This document shows, one piece after another, positions 20,829-29,383 of a DNA stretch of 39,233 bases (positions within the stretch are counted from its first letter, which is position 1; every line of letters starts with the position of its first letter). The stretch is from NCBI GenBank assembly GCA_902582355.1, contig CACHRR010000007.1:1-39233 (forward strand), read 5' to 3'. Both the position numbers and the translations under genes were made by a program. The notes below the pieces were generated by a model. The model had not been told where the DNA came from. It saw only the letters and a list, made by a program, of their open reading frames with translations, and did not search any database. The DNA comes from an uncultured SAR86 cluster bacterium (GTDB lineage Bacteria > Pseudomonadota > Gammaproteobacteria > Magnimaribacterales > D2472).

Positions 20829-21950
20829 ATGAAAAATATCGAAAAATTTATTATTGATATTCCTGATAAGGAAATAGATTTTTTAAACCAAAAAATTGAT
20901 TTGACTAGATGGCCTGATGAAATAAATCATAAATGGTCCCATGGAACAGATCTACATTTTTTAAAAGAACTAACAAACTTTTGGCGAAATGAATTTAATT
21001 GGCGCGATCATGAAAAAAAAATTAATGACATAGGTAGCTATAGATATACAACAAGGTCAGGACTTAAGTTACATTTTCTTCATTCTAAATCAGAAAAAGA
21101 TAACGCTATTCCACTAGTAATGACTCACGGGTGGCCAGGAAGCATTCAGGAATTTTTAAAAATAATACCAATCATTCAAAAAAACTCTGTTGTACCGATT
21201 GATATTATTTGCCCTGCTCTTCCAGGATTTGGATTTTCTGATAAACCAAAAGAAGTTGGTATGGATTCTAAACAAATTGCCATTTTGCAACATGAGCTAT
21301 TAATGGCTCTAGGATATAAAAAATATATTGTTCAAGGTGGTGATTGGGGAGCAACTGTAAGTAAATGGATGGCCGAACTTTATCCAGATCATTGTATTGG
21401 CATCCACCTTAATATGATTATTGCTTGGCCGCCTGCTGATGAAGATCCATTAGAGAACACTTCACAAGAAGAACAAAAATTAATGGCAAATTATGAAAAA
21501 TATAAAGAGCATGGAAATGGATACTATGAGATACAAAAAACAAAACCACAAACACTTGGTTATGGTTTAAATGACTCACCTGTTGGACTGGCTGCTTGGA
21601 TTGTAGAGAAATTTTATGGTTGGTTTGATGGTGAAGAGAATAAACTAGTTGTTTCTAATGATGAGGTTTTAGCAATAGTATCTTTGTATTGGTTTACTGA
21701 ATCAATAACTTCATCAACAAGGTTGTATAAAGAAAATGGAGACTTAGGATTTTCTTTTGAGAACATTAAGCAACCTATGGCAGGCGCAGTTTTTGAAAGA
21801 GACTTAATTGCACCTCCAAGAGCATGGGCTGAAGAAATCTATAATGTAGTTCAATGGAATACTCACAAAGGCGGACATTTTGCAGCCTTAGAGCAACCTG
21901 AGTCACTTTCTAAGGATATTATAGAATTTATAAAGAAACTAAAGATCTAA
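20829..21950 (+). CDS. Epoxide hydrolase (microsomal EH-like, with EHN domain)
   Basis: A 373-aa alpha/beta-hydrolase. The EHN lid-anchoring domain covers about 1-110 (LTRWPD, FWRNEFNWRDHEKKIN). The oxyanion element is HGWPGS (100-105). The nucleophile is D172 in QGGDWGA, the acid probably D325 in FERDLIAPPRAW, and the base H350 in KGGHFAALEQPE; their spacing matches fungal epoxide hydrolases. It opens epoxides to diols by a covalent ester intermediate, useful for detoxifying or using lipid and terpene epoxides. It lacks the membrane anchor of mammalian mEH. Its end overlaps the convergent phytase gene by 12 bases. Confidence 0.93.
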   Translation: MKNIEKFIIDIPDKEIDFLNQKIDLTRWPDEINHKWSHGTDLHFLKELTNFWRNEFNWRDHEKKINDIGSYRYTTRSGLKLHFLHSKSEKDNAIPLVMTHGWPGSIQEFLKIIPIIQKNSVVPIDIICPALPGFGFSDKPKEVGMDSKQIAILQHELLMALGYKKYIVQGGDWGATVSKWMAELYPDHCIGIHLNMIIAWPPADEDPLENTSQEEQKLMANYEKYKEHGNGYYEIQKTKPQTLGYGLNDSPVGLAAWIVEKFYGWFDGEENKLVVSNDEVLAIVSLYWFTESITSSTRLYKENGDLGFSFENIKQPMAGAVFERDLIAPPRAWAEEIYNVVQWNTHKGGHFAALEQPESLSKDIIEFIKKLKI

Positions 21951-23024
21951 TTTTTCTAGAACATCAGCAAAAGAAACATATTTAAAATTCTGTCTCTTAA
22001 CCTTATTTTTGCCATCATTTATTCCATCCTGCAGGACAAATAAACCCATAGGATATTTATTACCAAAATTAAAATTAATAACGTCTATTCCATCAGTATC
22101 ATTAACATTATCAATGTCCTTGTTACTACCAACTTTGAAACTGCCTAGGTAGTTATAAGGCTCTTGTCGGTTATAAATATTAAAAGAACTATCACCTTGA
22201 GATGAAACGATAACATATCCATCTTTTTCAGAAGATTTATAAACCGTTACTCCTTCAGGATCACCATCTATATTTCCAGATCTATTATCAATAATAATAG
22301 GATTTGAAAAATCTAATTCGTTATTTATCTTATAGGCTCTTAAAACACCCCTATCTTGTTCTTCAGATATAAAAAGAGTTCTGTTTTCATCGTCGTAAAC
22401 ACATCCCTCAGATTGAGTTGCATTTCCATTATTAAATGTTGTTAAAAGAGTCATTCCAAAAGGACCATAATTCCACATCTGTACCTTTGGTCCTTCATCT
22501 TCTGTTAAAAATGCTATTAATCCAAATCTCGAATCAATACCTGCACAAACTCCATAAACTACCATGTTTGCTTTAGCATTTATATAAGGCTCCTTTGAAA
22601 TTTCAAAATTATCATCCTTTACAGCTTTATCAATGTTGGTATCTTTGTATGTCCATATATCAAGAGTGTTTGTAGTTCTATTTGATGCAAAAATAAATGA
22701 ATAACTGCCTATATCTTTATTATCATCATCAGTAACATTCATTGTTCTAACATCAATATTATTGACATCTCCAATTTCTGTGTAGCCTATTTTTTTTGCT
22801 TTTAAGTTATATGTATATATACCGCTTTTCTTATCTGTTCCAAATACTAGTGATCTATTTGGATTTAATTTATTTAGCCAGATAGCAGGATCATCTGCAG
22901 CATCTCCTTTTGAGATTACTTGAGGAGTCTCGTCGATTGCAGGAACTATATGAATAATTTTATCTATAGGATCAGATATTGCAGATAGCGAATATATAAA
23001 TAATGTTGTTAATAAGTATTTCAT
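21939..23024 (-). CDS. Beta-propeller phytase (3-phytase family)
   Basis: A 361-aa exported protein with a signal peptide (about 1-17). The early ISKGDAADDPAIWLN (38-52) corresponds to the calcium- and phosphate-binding D-x-D-D-P-A-x-W motif of beta-propeller phytases. Later elements include VYGVCAGIDSRFG, QSEGCVYDDENRTLFISEEQ and GDPEGVTVY, typical propeller repeats of the family. Such enzymes release inorganic phosphate stepwise from phytate in neutral, calcium-rich water. It lies 56 bases downstream of a TonB receptor gene with a stem-loop between them. Being Sec-exported, it could act in the periplasm or be secreted. Context with Pit, PPK2 and Ppx supports phosphate scavenging. Confidence 0.9.
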   Translation of the reverse strand: MKYLLTTLFIYSLSAISDPIDKIIHIVPAIDETPQVISKGDAADDPAIWLNKLNPNRSLVFGTDKKSGIYTYNLKAKKIGYTEIGDVNNIDVRTMNVTDDDNKDIGSYSFIFASNRTTNTLDIWTYKDTNIDKAVKDDNFEISKEPYINAKANMVVYGVCAGIDSRFGLIAFLTEDEGPKVQMWNYGPFGMTLLTTFNNGNATQSEGCVYDDENRTLFISEEQDRGVLRAYKINNELDFSNPIIIDNRSGNIDGDPEGVTVYKSSEKDGYVIVSSQGDSSFNIYNRQEPYNYLGSFKVGSNKDIDNVNDTDGIDVINFNFGNKYPMGLFVLQDGINDGKNKVKRQNFKYVSFADVLEKLDL

Positions 23025-23080: not shown

Positions 23081-25618
23081 TTATAAATTATATCTTATGC
23101 CAATTGAATAGGTTGTTCCATACTCGTCATATTGAGATAATCTGTTTGGAGTTCCCCAATAGTAAAACTCTGGTTCATCAGTTATGTTATTGATATCAAA
23201 TTTAAGACTTAGATTGTCATTAATTTTATATTTAAGATTAAAATCAATTTGAGTGTGATCATCTGTGTACCTAATATTATTATTATCTAAATCCTCTTGA
23301 ATGGTTTCGCTATCATCATCTGCAAGATAATCTAAATAAGGCGATCTTGAAACAGACGATAGCCTTATATCAAATTTATTTTTATCGTAACCTATAGAGA
23401 TATTAGAAACATCTTCTGATAATTTTCTGAATGGAAATGTTACAGTTCCATTATCTACATCTAATGATGAAGTTCCATCAGTAGTAGTAAAGTTCATTGA
23501 AACAAACAGGCCATCAAAGGGTTCTGGCAGCATATTTAGCTCTTGAAATATATTTAATTCAAAACCATCAACATCAGAGTCATCTGTATTTACAAATGTC
23601 AATAATTCGTCAAAAAGCAAACCATTTACTGTTGTATTAGCCACTGCAAGTGGATAAATTGCATTTTCGATATCTTTCTTAAAATATCCAAATGATGCGA
23701 AAGAGCCATCACCGTAATATTCAATTGATAAATCAAAATTAGTTGCTTCATACGGGTCAAGATCTGGGTTACCCATCTCACCTCGATAATTACCATCATC
23801 TCTTTCTCTTATATCTGCTATCAAGTTTGCTTGACCAAAACCCGGTCTAGATAATGCTCTCCATATTGCACCTCTAATGATAGTTTGATCATCTAAGAAA
23901 TATTTAACATTTAAACTTGGCGAGACAAACGTGTAACTCTTTGATGCTGTTAACACATCATCTACATCACCATCATTATATCCAAGAGTATCGAAATCAG
24001 TATCTTCAACCCTAATACCTGCTATAACAATTGCCTTATCAAAATCCATTGTACCCATAAAATATATCGCGGTAATATCTTCATTTGTTGTAAAGTCTTC
24101 TTCAAAGTTATCATAATCAGGACCACCAGTGTATTGACCCTTTCTTGCATATAAAAGATTTTCATCAGCATGAGGACCGTACTGTTGTCCGGCGAATGGC
24201 CAAGATCTTATGTATGGTCCAAATTCAGATTGAAGTAAAGCTTGCACATTATCATCATCAACTTCTATTTGATTGCTATCACCTTTTTTCTCTCTAGACT
24301 TATATTTAAAACCATATTTTACTGTTGTTGGAACATCCATAAACGTAAATCCATCTTTCGTCATATCTATACTAAACGCTGTTTCAGTATCTTTGATTAA
24401 ACTCCAATCTTCTTCCCATGCATCAACATTTAAATCAGCATAAAGCACACCTTGAGCATATGATGAGAGAGATAAACCGACTTTTTGAGGATCTTGATAA
24501 AAGAATGAGCCACAAGGACCTCCGCAATCATCAGTATCAATTCTATCGCTTCTAAATGTTACATCAACATTATCTGTATCATTTTCTTCAGCGTAAGAGT
24601 GACTAAACTGCACTTCTGCGAACCAGCCGTTTATCAATGTCTCACCGCCCAATATCACGGTTCTTATTTCACGTGTTTCTATTCTTTTTCTAACTTCAGC
24701 ATCTCTTCTAACTCTATTAATCTCGCTTGAGCCTGCATATACGTTACCGGTTCTAAGAGAGCCAAATTCTTCTTTATTCCTTAATTCATCATCATCATAT
24801 TTGTTATATAAAAGATTTGCATAAATTGATGTATCGTCATCTATCATCATATCGATATCATAAGTAACACCTGTTCTTTCTCTTGTTAAATCATAAAACC
24901 TCATCTCCCAATCATCATCAAGAAAGATATTTCCGTCGTCTGTATCCCAAGCTGGAAAACCGGTTTCGTTGTTGTAGGTAACAATCTGCTTAGATGCGTA
25001 TGTAACACCAAGAACATGTCCAATATTTTCATTAATCATTGAACCATAAGTAAACGCCATTTTTGGATTATCAGAATTTTTAGATTGCTCATTGTATGAA
25101 GTGTCTGCTTTAAATTTTAGAAGTGTTCCGTCAATTGAAGTAGCTCTTTTAGTATTAAACTCAATTCTTCCGCCAATTGAGTCAGCATCTTTATCTGCTG
25201 TTAGTGTCTTGTATACTTCTATTGAATCTAGCAATTCAGTTGGCAGACCATCAAGCATAACAGCCCTACCTCCCTCTGGAGCAGGAACAAGAGCACCGTT
25301 AACTGCAATTGAATTAAGATCACCAGATATACCTCTTATATTTACATATCTGCCTTCGCCTTGATCGTTTTCAACTGAAATACCTGATAGTCTTCTTATG
25401 GCTTCAGCTGCTGTTGTATCTGGAAAGTCACCTAAAGCATCAGAATCTACGACAGAAACAATTAAATTTGATTGTCTTTGTTTTTCAATAGCAGAAACAA
25501 TACTAGCTTTTGTACCAACTACTACAACTTCTTCAACTTGCTCATCGTTAGTATTATTTTCTGACTCTTGAGAAAATAAAGATAGTGATAGAAACAATGG
25601 GAATATATATTTTTTCAT
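23081..25618 (-). CDS. TonB-dependent receptor (TIGR01782/Xanthomonas-Caulobacter type)
   Basis: An 845-aa outer-membrane receptor. After a signal peptide (about 1-17) comes a TonB-box-like EEVVVVGTK. The plug domain (about 40-160) carries LGDFPDTTAAEAIRRLSGIS, RYVNIRGI and DKDADSIGGRIEFNTK, which are hallmarks of the TIGR01782 group known for carbohydrate and other non-siderophore ligands. The barrel ends in YSIGIRYNL. I use ATG at 25618, which has GGAG 6 bases upstream and a proper signal peptide, not the open frame to 25672. It is upstream of a phytase gene, so phytate or another organic phosphate is the best guess for ligand; this is inference. A divergent TetR gene lies 129 bases away. 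Confidence 0.92.
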   Translation of the reverse strand: MKKYIFPLFLSLSLFSQESENNTNDEQVEEVVVVGTKASIVSAIEKQRQSNLIVSVVDSDALGDFPDTTAAEAIRRLSGISVENDQGEGRYVNIRGISGDLNSIAVNGALVPAPEGGRAVMLDGLPTELLDSIEVYKTLTADKDADSIGGRIEFNTKRATSIDGTLLKFKADTSYNEQSKNSDNPKMAFTYGSMINENIGHVLGVTYASKQIVTYNNETGFPAWDTDDGNIFLDDDWEMRFYDLTRERTGVTYDIDMMIDDDTSIYANLLYNKYDDDELRNKEEFGSLRTGNVYAGSSEINRVRRDAEVRKRIETREIRTVILGGETLINGWFAEVQFSHSYAEENDTDNVDVTFRSDRIDTDDCGGPCGSFFYQDPQKVGLSLSSYAQGVLYADLNVDAWEEDWSLIKDTETAFSIDMTKDGFTFMDVPTTVKYGFKYKSREKKGDSNQIEVDDDNVQALLQSEFGPYIRSWPFAGQQYGPHADENLLYARKGQYTGGPDYDNFEEDFTTNEDITAIYFMGTMDFDKAIVIAGIRVEDTDFDTLGYNDGDVDDVLTASKSYTFVSPSLNVKYFLDDQTIIRGAIWRALSRPGFGQANLIADIRERDDGNYRGEMGNPDLDPYEATNFDLSIEYYGDGSFASFGYFKKDIENAIYPLAVANTTVNGLLFDELLTFVNTDDSDVDGFELNIFQELNMLPEPFDGLFVSMNFTTTDGTSSLDVDNGTVTFPFRKLSEDVSNISIGYDKNKFDIRLSSVSRSPYLDYLADDDSETIQEDLDNNNIRYTDDHTQIDFNLKYKINDNLSLKFDINNITDEPEFYYWGTPNRLSQYDEYGTTYSIGIRYNL

Positions 25619-25677: not shown

Positions 25678-25694
25678 TGTGAACATTATGTGAA
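25678..25694 (-). promoter_or_regulatory. PHO-box-like direct repeat upstream of the phytase-linked TonB receptor
   Basis: On the minus strand TTCACA occurs twice with exactly 11-base spacing (25694-25689 and 25683-25678). As 7-mers, ATTCACA and GTTCACA separated by TAAT match five of seven positions of a TGTCACA-like PhoB half-site, and the 7+4 arrangement is that of a PhoB box. It lies about 60-76 bases before the start codon. Phosphate regulation would suit the neighbouring genes, but no PhoB gene is in the window and chance is possible in AT-rich DNA. Confidence 0.42.
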
Positions 25695-25713: not shown

Positions 25714-25741
25714 TTTACATTTATAGACATTTGTCCATAAT
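25714..25741 (+). promoter_or_regulatory. Promoter of the TetR gene with an 18-bp operator-like palindrome
   Basis: TTTACA (25714-25719), a 16-base spacer and CATAAT (25736-25741) form a good sigma-70 promoter whose start should fall on the GTG at 25748. Between and overlapping these boxes is the imperfect inverted repeat TATAGACAT-TTGTCCATA (25722-25739), with perfect core GACA-TT-TGTC. Its place over the -10 box is where an autorepressing TetR dimer normally binds. A second small palindrome, ATGTTTACAT, lies at 25711-25720. Confidence 0.6.
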
Positions 25742-25747
25742 TAAATA

Positions 25748-26341
25748 GTGGAGACTTTAGCAAAACAAGACAGAAGCAAAGAAAGAATTAATAAAATAAT
25801 TGATGCTGCAATTAATATTGTTGAAGATGGTGAAATTGATGATCTTACTCTTGCAAAAGTAGCAGAAAAATCTGGTTTAAAAAGAACATCCACTTATAAA
25901 TTCATACCAACTGTAGATTTCTTAAAAAAACTAATAATCTCAAAATGTATTAATGAATGTTTAGAAAACTTTTCAAAAAACATCTTAAGTGATAGTGATA
26001 AAGGAGATCTTATAAAAGTTACAAATTATATTATTTATAATATTTATGAATATTTTTTTTATTCTTCAATAGCACAAAAATTAATTCTTAGTAATACCAT
26101 AAATCCGCCTTTAGACTCAGATTCAATTCATCAATTAGGTAAGGTCATTCAAGAAACTTACGAAGAATCCATAAGTCTCGATAACGTTTTTAATAAAGAA
26201 GGTGTTTGTAGAGTTGTTGCCCAGATTATTCTGTCAATATTTTCGTTGAATACAAAGGAAAGTGGTAAATTAAATGATATTGGTAAAATTGAAGCATCTA
26301 GAGCTGTAGTTGCATACATGACCAGCTGGATAAAGAGGTAA
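25748..26341 (+). CDS. TetR/AcrR family transcriptional regulator
   Basis: A 197-aa regulator with an N-terminal helix-turn-helix (LTLAKVAEKSGLKRTSTYKF, about residues 33-52) followed by the usual all-helical ligand-binding domain with no recognised subfamily. GTG at 25748 is the only start that keeps the full DNA-binding domain, because an in-frame TAA lies 6 bases upstream. There is no Shine-Dalgarno and the promoter -10 box ends 6 bases before it, so the mRNA is probably leaderless. It is divergent from the TonB receptor-phytase pair and convergent with the Pit gene, so it is the likely local regulator of the phosphate island. Its ligand cannot be deduced. Confidence 0.85.
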   Translation: METLAKQDRSKERINKIIDAAINIVEDGEIDDLTLAKVAEKSGLKRTSTYKFIPTVDFLKKLIISKCINECLENFSKNILSDSDKGDLIKVTNYIIYNIYEYFFYSSIAQKLILSNTINPPLDSDSIHQLGKVIQETYEESISLDNVFNKEGVCRVVAQIILSIFSLNTKESGKLNDIGKIEASRAVVAYMTSWIKR

Positions 26342-26343
26342 AA

Positions 26344-27591
26344 TCAAACTCCGAATATTAATCTTAGAAAAACCCAATACAAGATTGTTAAAAAAGCTCC
26401 AATTGGAATTGTAATTAACCATGAAGTAATAATTCTTGTTATTGACTTGGTATTTAAATGATTAGCCCCTTTTGCCAATCCAACCCCAATAACTCCTCCA
26501 ACTAGTGTATGAGTAGTTGAAATTGGAAATCCAACGTAAGAAGCAACAACAACTGTAGTTGCTGTAGCAAGTTCAGCTGAAAAACCAAGACTAGGCTTTA
26601 ATGCAGTAATTTTTTCTCCTACAGTTTTTATTACATTTTTTCCAAGCATGCTTAAACCAAAAACAATCCCTGTTGCACCTAAAAAAAGAATCCAAGCTTG
26701 AACTGGAGACGAAGTATCTATAATACCATTTGAATTTACAGTGGAAACGATTGCAGCAAGAGGTCCAATTGCATTAGCAACATCATTTGAGCCATGAGCA
26801 AAAGCCATTGCACATGCCGAGACAATCATTAAAATTGCAAATGCAGATTCAATTCCATTTTCTTTGATTTTTGAAAAATTCTGTCTTAAAAGAGTATAAG
26901 TAATTGCAGCTGCAATAATTCCAAAAATTGAACTAAACGTATATACATCTGACTCTGATAACTCAAGTCCTATATTTTTCAGTCCTTTTCTTGCTATAAC
27001 TAATGAAATAATAAAAGCAACATAAAAACTATATATAGGAATTATTTTAACGGCTCTTCCACCTGGATTAGCGCTATCAAGAATGGATTTTTTTGCACTT
27101 AAATAAATTAAAAATGCTAGGAATCCCGCAATTACTGGCGATGTTACCCAACTTGAAGCTATGCCACCTACTGTCCCCCAAGATACATAACTCATTCCTT
27201 TTGAAATTGAAACAAAACCAATTATTGCACCAACGATTGAATGAGTTGTGGAAACTGGCCAGCCTCTTCTTGAGGCAATAATTAACCATGTTCCTGCGGC
27301 TAATAATGACGATAACATTCCAATAATAAATTTATTTGCATCCTCATAAATTGTTGGATCAACAATTCCTTTTCTTATTGTTGAGGTAACTTCACCACCT
27401 CCAAAATATGCTCCAAGAAATTCAAATATTGCAGCAATAATGATAGCCTGTTTTAGAGTAATTGCCTTGCTTCCAACTGAAGTTCCCATAGCATTTGCAA
27501 CATCATTTGCACCTATTCCATATGCCATAAAGAACCCAACTATAGATGCTATAATTACTATTGCAAGAGGGCTTAAGAACAGAGTTTCCAT
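26344..27591 (-). CDS. Inorganic phosphate transporter, Pit/PHO4 family
   Basis: A 415-aa inner-membrane permease. The two PHO4 signature repeats are GANDVANAMG (27-36) and AHGSNDVANAIGPLAA in the second half, and each half ends with a V-S-T-T-H-like element (GWPVSTTHSIVGAI and GFPISTTHTLVGGV). The family imports metal-phosphate complexes or Na+/H+-coupled Pi. About ten membrane segments are visible. It is a plausible partner for the phytase, bringing released Pi into the cytoplasm. It lies 2 bases from the convergent TetR stop and is divergent from the PPK2 operon over 89 bases. No pst or phoU-like gene is seen here. Confidence 0.95.
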   Translation of the reverse strand: METLFLSPLAIVIIASIVGFFMAYGIGANDVANAMGTSVGSKAITLKQAIIIAAIFEFLGAYFGGGEVTSTIRKGIVDPTIYEDANKFIIGMLSSLLAAGTWLIIASRRGWPVSTTHSIVGAIIGFVSISKGMSYVSWGTVGGIASSWVTSPVIAGFLAFLIYLSAKKSILDSANPGGRAVKIIPIYSFYVAFIISLVIARKGLKNIGLELSESDVYTFSSIFGIIAAAITYTLLRQNFSKIKENGIESAFAILMIVSACAMAFAHGSNDVANAIGPLAAIVSTVNSNGIIDTSSPVQAWILFLGATGIVFGLSMLGKNVIKTVGEKITALKPSLGFSAELATATTVVVASYVGFPISTTHTLVGGVIGVGLAKGANHLNTKSITRIITSWLITIPIGAFLTILYWVFLRLIFGV

Positions 27592-27680: not shown

Positions 27681-28520
27681 ATGAAAATTATAAATTTAGA
27701 TCAAACTGATTATAAAAAACTTGATGCAAAATCTTACGATTTAGAAAAAAGAAGACTAAGAATTGAATTTTTGAAACTTCAAGAAGATGTAATTAAAAAT
27801 AATAGAAGAATATGTATCGTATTTGAAGGTAGAGACACTGCTGGCAAAAGTACAGCAATTAGATTCTTTTCAGAATACTTAATGCCAAAACATTTTAATT
27901 ACATTCAGCTAGGAATTCCAACAAAATGGGAATCATCTCACTGGTTCCAGAGATGGAAAAAGGTAATTCCAAATAGCGGTCAAATTTCATTTCTTGACAG
28001 ATCTTGGTATACACGAGCAATAACTGAACCCATTATGGGTTATTGCACTGAAAATCAATACAGAGCGTTTATGAAAAAAGTTAATAATTGGGAAGAGCAA
28101 TTAATAAGTGATGGAGTTGAATTAACAAAATTTTATTTTTCACTATCAAAAGATCAACAAAAAATTAGAATGAAAGCAAGAAAAAATTCTGAACTTAAGT
28201 ATTGGAAGCTTACAAAAAATGATGAAAAAGTAATTACTAAATGGAACGCCTTCACATTATACAAAGAGCAGATGTTTGAAAAAACTGGAACTGAAGTTAG
28301 TCCATGGGTTTCAATTAATTCGAATAATAAAATGATTGCGCGGTTAACATCACTAAGATATCTATTGAATAAAACTGAATATCATGGGAAGAAGATTCTT
28401 AAGCCTGCAAAATGGTCAAAGTCTTTGAATAATTATTCAACAAGTCTAGAAGGAGTTAAATTTGATAACCTTTCATATGAGCAATTTATGATCATAAGCA
28501 AATATAGCGACGACATATAA
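27681..28520 (+). CDS. ppk2: Polyphosphate kinase 2 (PPK2 family)
   Basis: A 279-aa P-loop kinase that transfers phosphate between polyphosphate and nucleotides. Walker A is GRDTAGKS (50-57), in the context VFEGRDTAGKSTAIR; Walker B is FLDRSWY (104-110), followed by MGYCTE. The C-terminal part contains YWKLTKNDEKVI and MFEKTGTEVSPW, matching the family. The usual DAAGKGG is here DTAGKST. Whether it makes polyphosphate or makes nucleotides from it cannot be told from sequence with certainty. Its stop shares one base with the Ppx start (TAATG), so they are translationally coupled. First gene of a three-gene operon divergent from Pit. Confidence 0.93.
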   Translation: MKIINLDQTDYKKLDAKSYDLEKRRLRIEFLKLQEDVIKNNRRICIVFEGRDTAGKSTAIRFFSEYLMPKHFNYIQLGIPTKWESSHWFQRWKKVIPNSGQISFLDRSWYTRAITEPIMGYCTENQYRAFMKKVNNWEEQLISDGVELTKFYFSLSKDQQKIRMKARKNSELKYWKLTKNDEKVITKWNAFTLYKEQMFEKTGTEVSPWVSINSNNKMIARLTSLRYLLNKTEYHGKKILKPAKWSKSLNNYSTSLEGVKFDNLSYEQFMIISKYSDDI

Positions 28521-29383
28521 TGAAAATTGCTTCCGTAGATATTGGCACAAATGCAGTAAAATCTAAGATTTTTGAAACAACACCCACCTCAATTAAGTTT
28601 ATTGATGGAATACGTTCCCCAATTCGTCTTGGAGCAGAAGTTTTTGAAGGGGGAAAGATATCTGATAAAAAACTAAGAGAATTAGTAAGTACGCTAAAAA
28701 GATATCAGAAAAAATTTACTAAAGATAAAATTGATCAATACGAAATTATTGCTACTAGCGCATTAAGAAATACCACTAACTCGGAAGAAGCAAGAACATA
28801 TATAGAAAATAAAATTGAACATCCAATTCGAATAATTTCAGGTCTTGAAGAAGCTCAGTTAATAGGTTTTCATCCAAAGGCACAAAAAGAAAATAATAAA
28901 GCATATGTTGATGTTGGTGGGGGAAGTACTGAGATCTATATTTACAATAATCCAAAACATTCAATTCAATCTTTTCAATTAGGTGGTGTTAGATTAATGC
29001 TTAAAAAAGATAAGAGAAAAGAATGGGATAGATTGGATAAATGGTTAAAGCAATTCAATGATATAACAGAGATCATAGGACTTGGAGGTAACATTAGAGC
29101 CTTTTTAAATGCTCATAAATTAAAAAAAATGAAATCTGATGATTTTTTAAAAAAATATAAGAATCTAAGAAATCTTGAAATAGAAGAAAAAATTAACAAG
29201 TATGGATTTGCAAATGATAGAGCTGACGTCATTGATTTTGGATTAAAAATCTATGAGAGAATTATAAAAAAATTAGAGATTAAAACTATACAATCAACCA
29301 AATGGGGTGTCTCTGATTCAATTGCAGTTAAAATTTTCCATGAAATTTATTCAAAAAAAATATCAATATATAATGAAAAATGA
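28520..29383 (+). CDS. Ppx/GppA family phosphatase, short form
   Basis: A 287-aa member of the exopolyphosphatase/pppGpp phosphatase family in the actin-like ATPase fold. Motifs are ASVDIGTNAVK (about 3-13), the conserved ATSALRNTTN, the P-loop-like SGLEEAQLI and VDVGGGSTEI, and IIGLGGNIRAF. Only domains I and II are present; the C-terminal HD-like and helical regions of E. coli Ppx (513 aa) are absent, as in compact bacterial enzymes. It would hydrolyse polyphosphate ends or (p)ppGpp. It overlaps the PPK2 stop by 1 base and the aquaporin start by 4 bases, so polyphosphate handling and the channel are expressed together. Confidence 0.92.
   Translation: MKIASVDIGTNAVKSKIFETTPTSIKFIDGIRSPIRLGAEVFEGGKISDKKLRELVSTLKRYQKKFTKDKIDQYEIIATSALRNTTNSEEARTYIENKIEHPIRIISGLEEAQLIGFHPKAQKENNKAYVDVGGGSTEIYIYNNPKHSIQSFQLGGVRLMLKKDKRKEWDRLDKWLKQFNDITEIIGLGGNIRAFLNAHKLKKMKSDDFLKKYKNLRNLEIEEKINKYGFANDRADVIDFGLKIYERIIKKLEIKTIQSTKWGVSDSIAVKIFHEIYSKKISIYNEK

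Follow-up and report, generated by a model that had tools for sequence, protein, structure and literature searches.

The putative operator and its promoter

SAR86 bacteria are abundant in the surface ocean and seemingly poorly tractable in culture. In one of them, a palindrome precedes a gene of the TetR family, in an intergenic region shared with the gene for a TonB-dependent receptor, and the question is whether it is the operator of that regulator and, if so, what the regulator governs. The window, by which we mean the whole stretch of 39,233 nucleotides analysed, belongs to an assembly of 0.97 Mb that is 80% complete and whose close relatives are titled SAR86 cluster. The elements around the palindrome are as follows:

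25714..25719, + strand: -35 box TTTACA of the tetR promoter, from a promoter scan; many relatives have a TTTAC-like sequence
25722..25739, + strand: putative TetR operator, the 18-bp imperfect palindrome TATAGACATTTGTCCATA; the family-wide core ACA-WW-TGTC lies at 25727-25735
25736..25741, + strand: -10 box CATAAT of the tetR promoter, into which the right operator arm extends; most relatives keep SATAAT at 6 nt from the start codon
25748..26341, + strand: tetR-family gene, 197 amino acids, GTG start, probably leaderless

The promoter scan returned TTTACA-16-CATAAT at 25714-25741 (10 of 12 matches, with a 16-nt spacer), and 6 nt separate the end of the -10 box from the GTG at 25748. The first-pass annotation had placed a palindrome between these two boxes and this was borne out: TATAGACATTTGTCCATA begins after the -35 box and its right arm runs into the -10 box. 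In the window the core GACA-TT-TGTC is a perfect palindrome and, over the 18 bp, seven of the nine pairs are complementary, the mismatches being pair 4 and the centre. Symmetry alone nevertheless makes a weak case, because similar palindromes are expected several times per window: 11 18-mers with the same positions paired were observed against 6 expected, the expectation for the 129-bp intergenic region being 0.02. The pattern suggested in the first-pass annotation, TATNGACANNTGTCNATA, matches exactly once across the 0.97-Mb assembly.

Conservation of the site across SAR86

The argument for an operator comes chiefly from comparison between genomes. ACA-NN-TGT is found upstream of the tetR start in all 38 SAR86 orthologues that are less than 90% identical, with TetR identity down to about 30%, and in 31 of the 38 it lies exactly 21 nt from the start codon. 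Among 73 loci whose start is readable, 71 have ACANNTGTC upstream of tetR and the remaining two ACATTTGTT; these loci form a second, named collection whose species overlap with those of the 71-genome set used below, so that the two sets are not independent. TetR orthologues occur in 59 of 71 sampled family genomes. The extended motif was found by genome scan in 49 of the same 71, usually as a single copy and at tetR, while about 6e-6 full-motif matches are expected by chance per upstream stretch of 62 nt. The motif is missing from all three genomes of genus g4 that were sampled, and tetR was not found there either; two order-level homologues (L082 and L083) are without it as well. Genome G104 has a tetR-matching stretch (C1:800390-800908, 31% identity) with four internal stop codons after an exact operator motif: its tetR copy looks broken, with the site still there.

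The family-wide form of the element is ACA-WW-TGTC-N-ATAAT. Flanking positions are far less conserved than the motif in a motif-anchored alignment, in which the anchored columns are invariant by construction, yet every sequence supplied the anchor. The left arm drifts across the family: ACA is preceded by A in most members and by G in some, the left half past ACA is poorly conserved, and pair 5 is G/C in only nine of the 38 orthologues. The right arm runs into the -10 box. Thus, the 18-bp palindrome of the first-pass annotation holds for the close relatives of the window, but across the family the symmetric part shrinks to the 8 bp ACA-NN-TGT. Beyond these 8 bp the site appears markedly asymmetric, and the conservation of its right half may in part reflect promoter constraint.

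This asymmetry is what would be expected if the conserved block were a mere promoter element, such as an unusual arrangement of -35 and -10 boxes or a signal for leaderless starts, rather than an operator: the better conserved half is the one that overlaps the -10 box, and the distance to the start codon is fixed. However, a general promoter element would be expected upstream of many genes, whereas this motif is usually single-copy per genome. Moreover, spacer bases are normally free, but ACA-NN-TGTC is nearly invariant within the spacer; and genus g6 retains the core ACATTTGTCT even though its -10 box is poor. The central two bases are TT in 25, AA in 10 and TA in three of the 38 orthologues, an exchange that fits a symmetric reading: TT and AA are one site read from opposite strands, with the direction of the promoter unchanged, as a dimer would read it. 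We regard a pure promoter element as very improbable.

The preferred reading takes the site as the operator for the TetR-family regulator encoded next to it, serving autorepression over a leaderless promoter; we put its probability at roughly 0.85. Genus g6, with its poor -10 box, fits this reading less well. The first-pass annotation had proposed the same arrangement, and the comparison it had called for, namely whether the site is kept where the tetR and TonB genes are conserved, was carried out: the site is kept, even where a porin replaces the TonB gene, and across all the gene orders found. Leaderless initiation appears likely because the interval from -10 box to start is a constant 6 nt in most loci, mostly without another in-frame start nearby.

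A regulator of the TetR family

The window protein scores 12 bits against Pfam TetR_N, below the cut-off of 24, and 12 of 22 members match this model (best 9.3e-5); NCBIfam has no equivalog above cut-off and thus no specific name for it. Membership of the TetR family is supported by other means: an alignment profile matches many solved TetR proteins (EthR at 3.8e-7), and an AlphaFold2 model (pLDDT 91.4) adopts the TetR fold, all-helical with two domains and nine helices. Foldseek relates the model to KstR (8.5e-6), and structural matches to KstR and EthR have a VIA Z of about 16. Residues L44-F52, the predicted recognition helix LKRTSTYKF, are invariant in 42 regulators, as are K6, Q7, R9, S10 and R13. 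These invariant residues are in keeping with the invariant core of the putative operator.

TetR-family proteins of the TetR, QacR, AcrR, KstR and EthR types repress their own genes through an operator, an inverted repeat, that covers the promoter. The SAR86 regulator resembles them in its fold, its N-terminal HTH, a small palindromic site between its own -35 and -10 boxes, to which we assign the operator role, and divergent or adjacent genes. It differs from solved members of the family in sequence, with an identity of about 10-19%, and its operator core is presumably unlike the operators of those five types.

The phosphate island and a second control site

The genes around tetR form a conserved island of phosphate functions. 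In the window, its members and a further candidate control site are:

21939..23024, - strand: beta-propeller phytase with a signal-peptide-like N-terminus
23081..25618, - strand: TonB-dependent receptor, whose start is probably MKKYIFPLF at 25618, the ORF as listed reaching 25672
25678..25694, - strand: direct repeat with an 11-bp period, TTCACAT-AATG-TTCACA, resembling a Pho box and lying towards TonB-phytase; relatives have a stronger form, TGTMACA
26344..27591, - strand: PiT phosphate transporter (PHO4)
27681..29383, + strand: genes for the PPK2 polyphosphate kinase and Ppx/GppA, likewise part of the conserved island

In the window the TonB-phytase genes are divergent from tetR, and most loci have such a shared divergent intergenic region. 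In several others, tetR lies immediately 5' of the phytase gene on the same strand, in the order PiT-porin-tetR-phytase. The outer-membrane partner encoded in the island varies: it is a TonB receptor in some loci and a PorB-like trimeric porin in others (L062, L064, L074). One locus (L064 8721-16000, of genome G011) has the phytase-EH-VTT-atg22 segment tandemly doubled, the second phytase match covering the C-terminal half only. A TonB-dependent receptor adjoining a phytase has a precedent in marine Citromicrobium, where phytic acid was proposed as the substrate; the main text of that paper names neither SAR86 nor TetR (PMC3400609). Our literature searches found no work combining SAR86, phytase and TonB-dependent, and nothing on-topic by title for SAR86 with phytase or for phytase with TetR.

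The Pho box of E. coli, bound in the PhoB/PhoR system, is a direct repeat of CTGTCAT-N4 with an 11-bp period. SAR86 has a comparable repeat, TGTMACA-N4-TGTMACA with the same period, before PiT, TonB-phytase and other phosphate genes. Compared with TGTCACA halves, the window repeat, as found in L125, reaches 10 of 14; relatives have better copies at the same place and about 57-73 nt before most PiT starts. Among the PiT upstream regions of relatives, 11 of 23 reach a score of 11 of 14 or more at period 11, against a mean of 0.08 after shuffling and no more than 2 at any other period, and GTMACA-N4-TGTMACA has 19 sites in 12 genomes and zero in a reversed control; since the half-site TGTMACA was picked after inspection of PiT and TonB upstream regions, these counts are not a blind test. 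The neighbours of the sites, named by eye from translations, are PiT and PPK2, TonB-phytase, a phoR-like gene with gspC/gspD-like genes after it, the neighbourhood of a PhoD-like phosphatase and, at a few sites, other genes. Two other patterns were tried and set aside: the strict E. coli-like TGTCAY-N5-TGTCAY gave scattered sites, one at PiT and one beside a phoR-like gene, and TTCACAT matches exactly at the window site alone. TGTMACA works better. The 11-bp direct repeat GTMACA-N4-TGTMACA is thus a probable SAR86 Pho box.

Relatives carry a PhoB-like/PhoR-like pair, and in one of them an OmpR-type response regulator and a sensor kinase lie beside ppx. Aside from the different half-site, this system departs from that of E. 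coli in two respects: the best response regulators reach about 235-256 bits against 296 bits for the curated PhoB cut-off (TIGR02154), hence the term PhoB-like, and no PstB scored above the TIGR00972 cut-off in 15 family or order genomes (G000, G007, G011 and others), with 13 of 14 controls passing. Most of these 15 genomes have the PhoB-like regulator, and the phosphate island carries PiT. No PhoB-like response regulator turned up in the incomplete assembly to which the window belongs; the genomes being incomplete, the absence of phytase, Pst or PhoB-like genes from any one of them is soft. The first-pass annotation had left it between a TetR signal in addition to Pi and one instead of Pi, and the separate Pho-box-like repeat on the TonB-phytase side favours the former: control by Pi is most likely separate from, and additional to, that by TetR.

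Targets and ligand of the regulator

Autorepression by TetR may be envisaged as follows. A TetR dimer would read the symmetric core ACA-NN-TGT, with the right half TGTC fixed, via its invariant recognition helix. The bound dimer would fill the spacer between the -35 and -10 boxes and overlap the latter; RNA polymerase would be barred from the leaderless tetR promoter because both spacer and -10 are occupied. A small molecule at the C-terminal domain would relieve the autorepression. Where the order is PiT-porin-tetR-phytase, the phytase gene would probably be under the same switch as tetR. In the window, the divergent TonB-phytase genes are more likely driven from their own Pho-box-like site by the PhoB/PhoR-like system, and any effect of TetR on them would be at most indirect.

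A broader role, compatible with autorepression, would be that of a bidirectional switch: TetR would in addition directly repress or antagonise the divergent TonB-phytase operon, or the PiT-porin-phytase operon, in competition with the PhoB-like activator. The divergent intergenic region shared in most loci would allow for this, and in many such loci the Pho-box-like repeat lies about 50-100 nt from the tetR start. Seen from the TonB gene, however, the window operator lies upstream of the repeat, about 27 bp from its edge, so that no simple blocking of RNA polymerase would be expected at the TonB promoter. Furthermore, neither the 420 nt upstream of tetR nor the surrounding loci yielded a consistent second operator. 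An exact internal match at 23592-23606 was considered as a second site; it falls within the TonB gene, is shared by near relatives only and was taken as chance. We consider such a switch possible but rather doubtful. In the absence of a consistent second operator, the only predicted targets of TetR are tetR itself and the genes co-transcribed with it, which sits oddly with its place among metabolic genes and speaks somewhat against the operator reading.

The first-pass annotation had gone further and suggested that the whole phytase system answers, through TetR, to an inositol phosphate; the same would apply to another phytate-derived ligand. Phytase is indeed near tetR in 54 of 60 full-length loci, in several directly downstream on the same strand, but PiT accompanies tetR more constantly still (59 of 60). 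Two genomes that are more than 90% complete, G037 and G056, keep tetR and its operator, and PiT alongside, with phytase not detected; in G056 (L062) a porin stands in the TonB-phytase place. In the window about 100 bp separate the operator from the TonB start, and the Pho-box-like repeat falls within this interval. The phytase looks exported, judging by eye from its signal-peptide-like N-terminus, so that phytate would be cut outside the cytoplasm. Beyond the DNA-binding domain, the only conserved basic residues of the regulator are K60, K150, K170 and R185, and the lack of a conserved basic cluster is only suggestive as evidence against an inositol-phosphate ligand. The suggestion thus found no support, and we judge governance of the phytase system by such a ligand to be unlikely.

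Implications for SAR86

For organisms that are hard to grow, the locus offers a regulator and a putative operator, a pairing that comparison supports strongly and that is amenable to testing in a laboratory host. It also allows two inputs to be told apart in a phosphate island without detected Pst: TetR on its own promoter, and the PhoB-like repeat on the uptake operons. Tentatively, and as a possibility that we do not favour over its negation, TetR may be a second, family-specific sensor of phosphorus status that reads a cytoplasmic metabolite and, together with the PhoB-like system acting on its own boxes, gates the phosphate/phytate island in these streamlined SAR86 bacteria.
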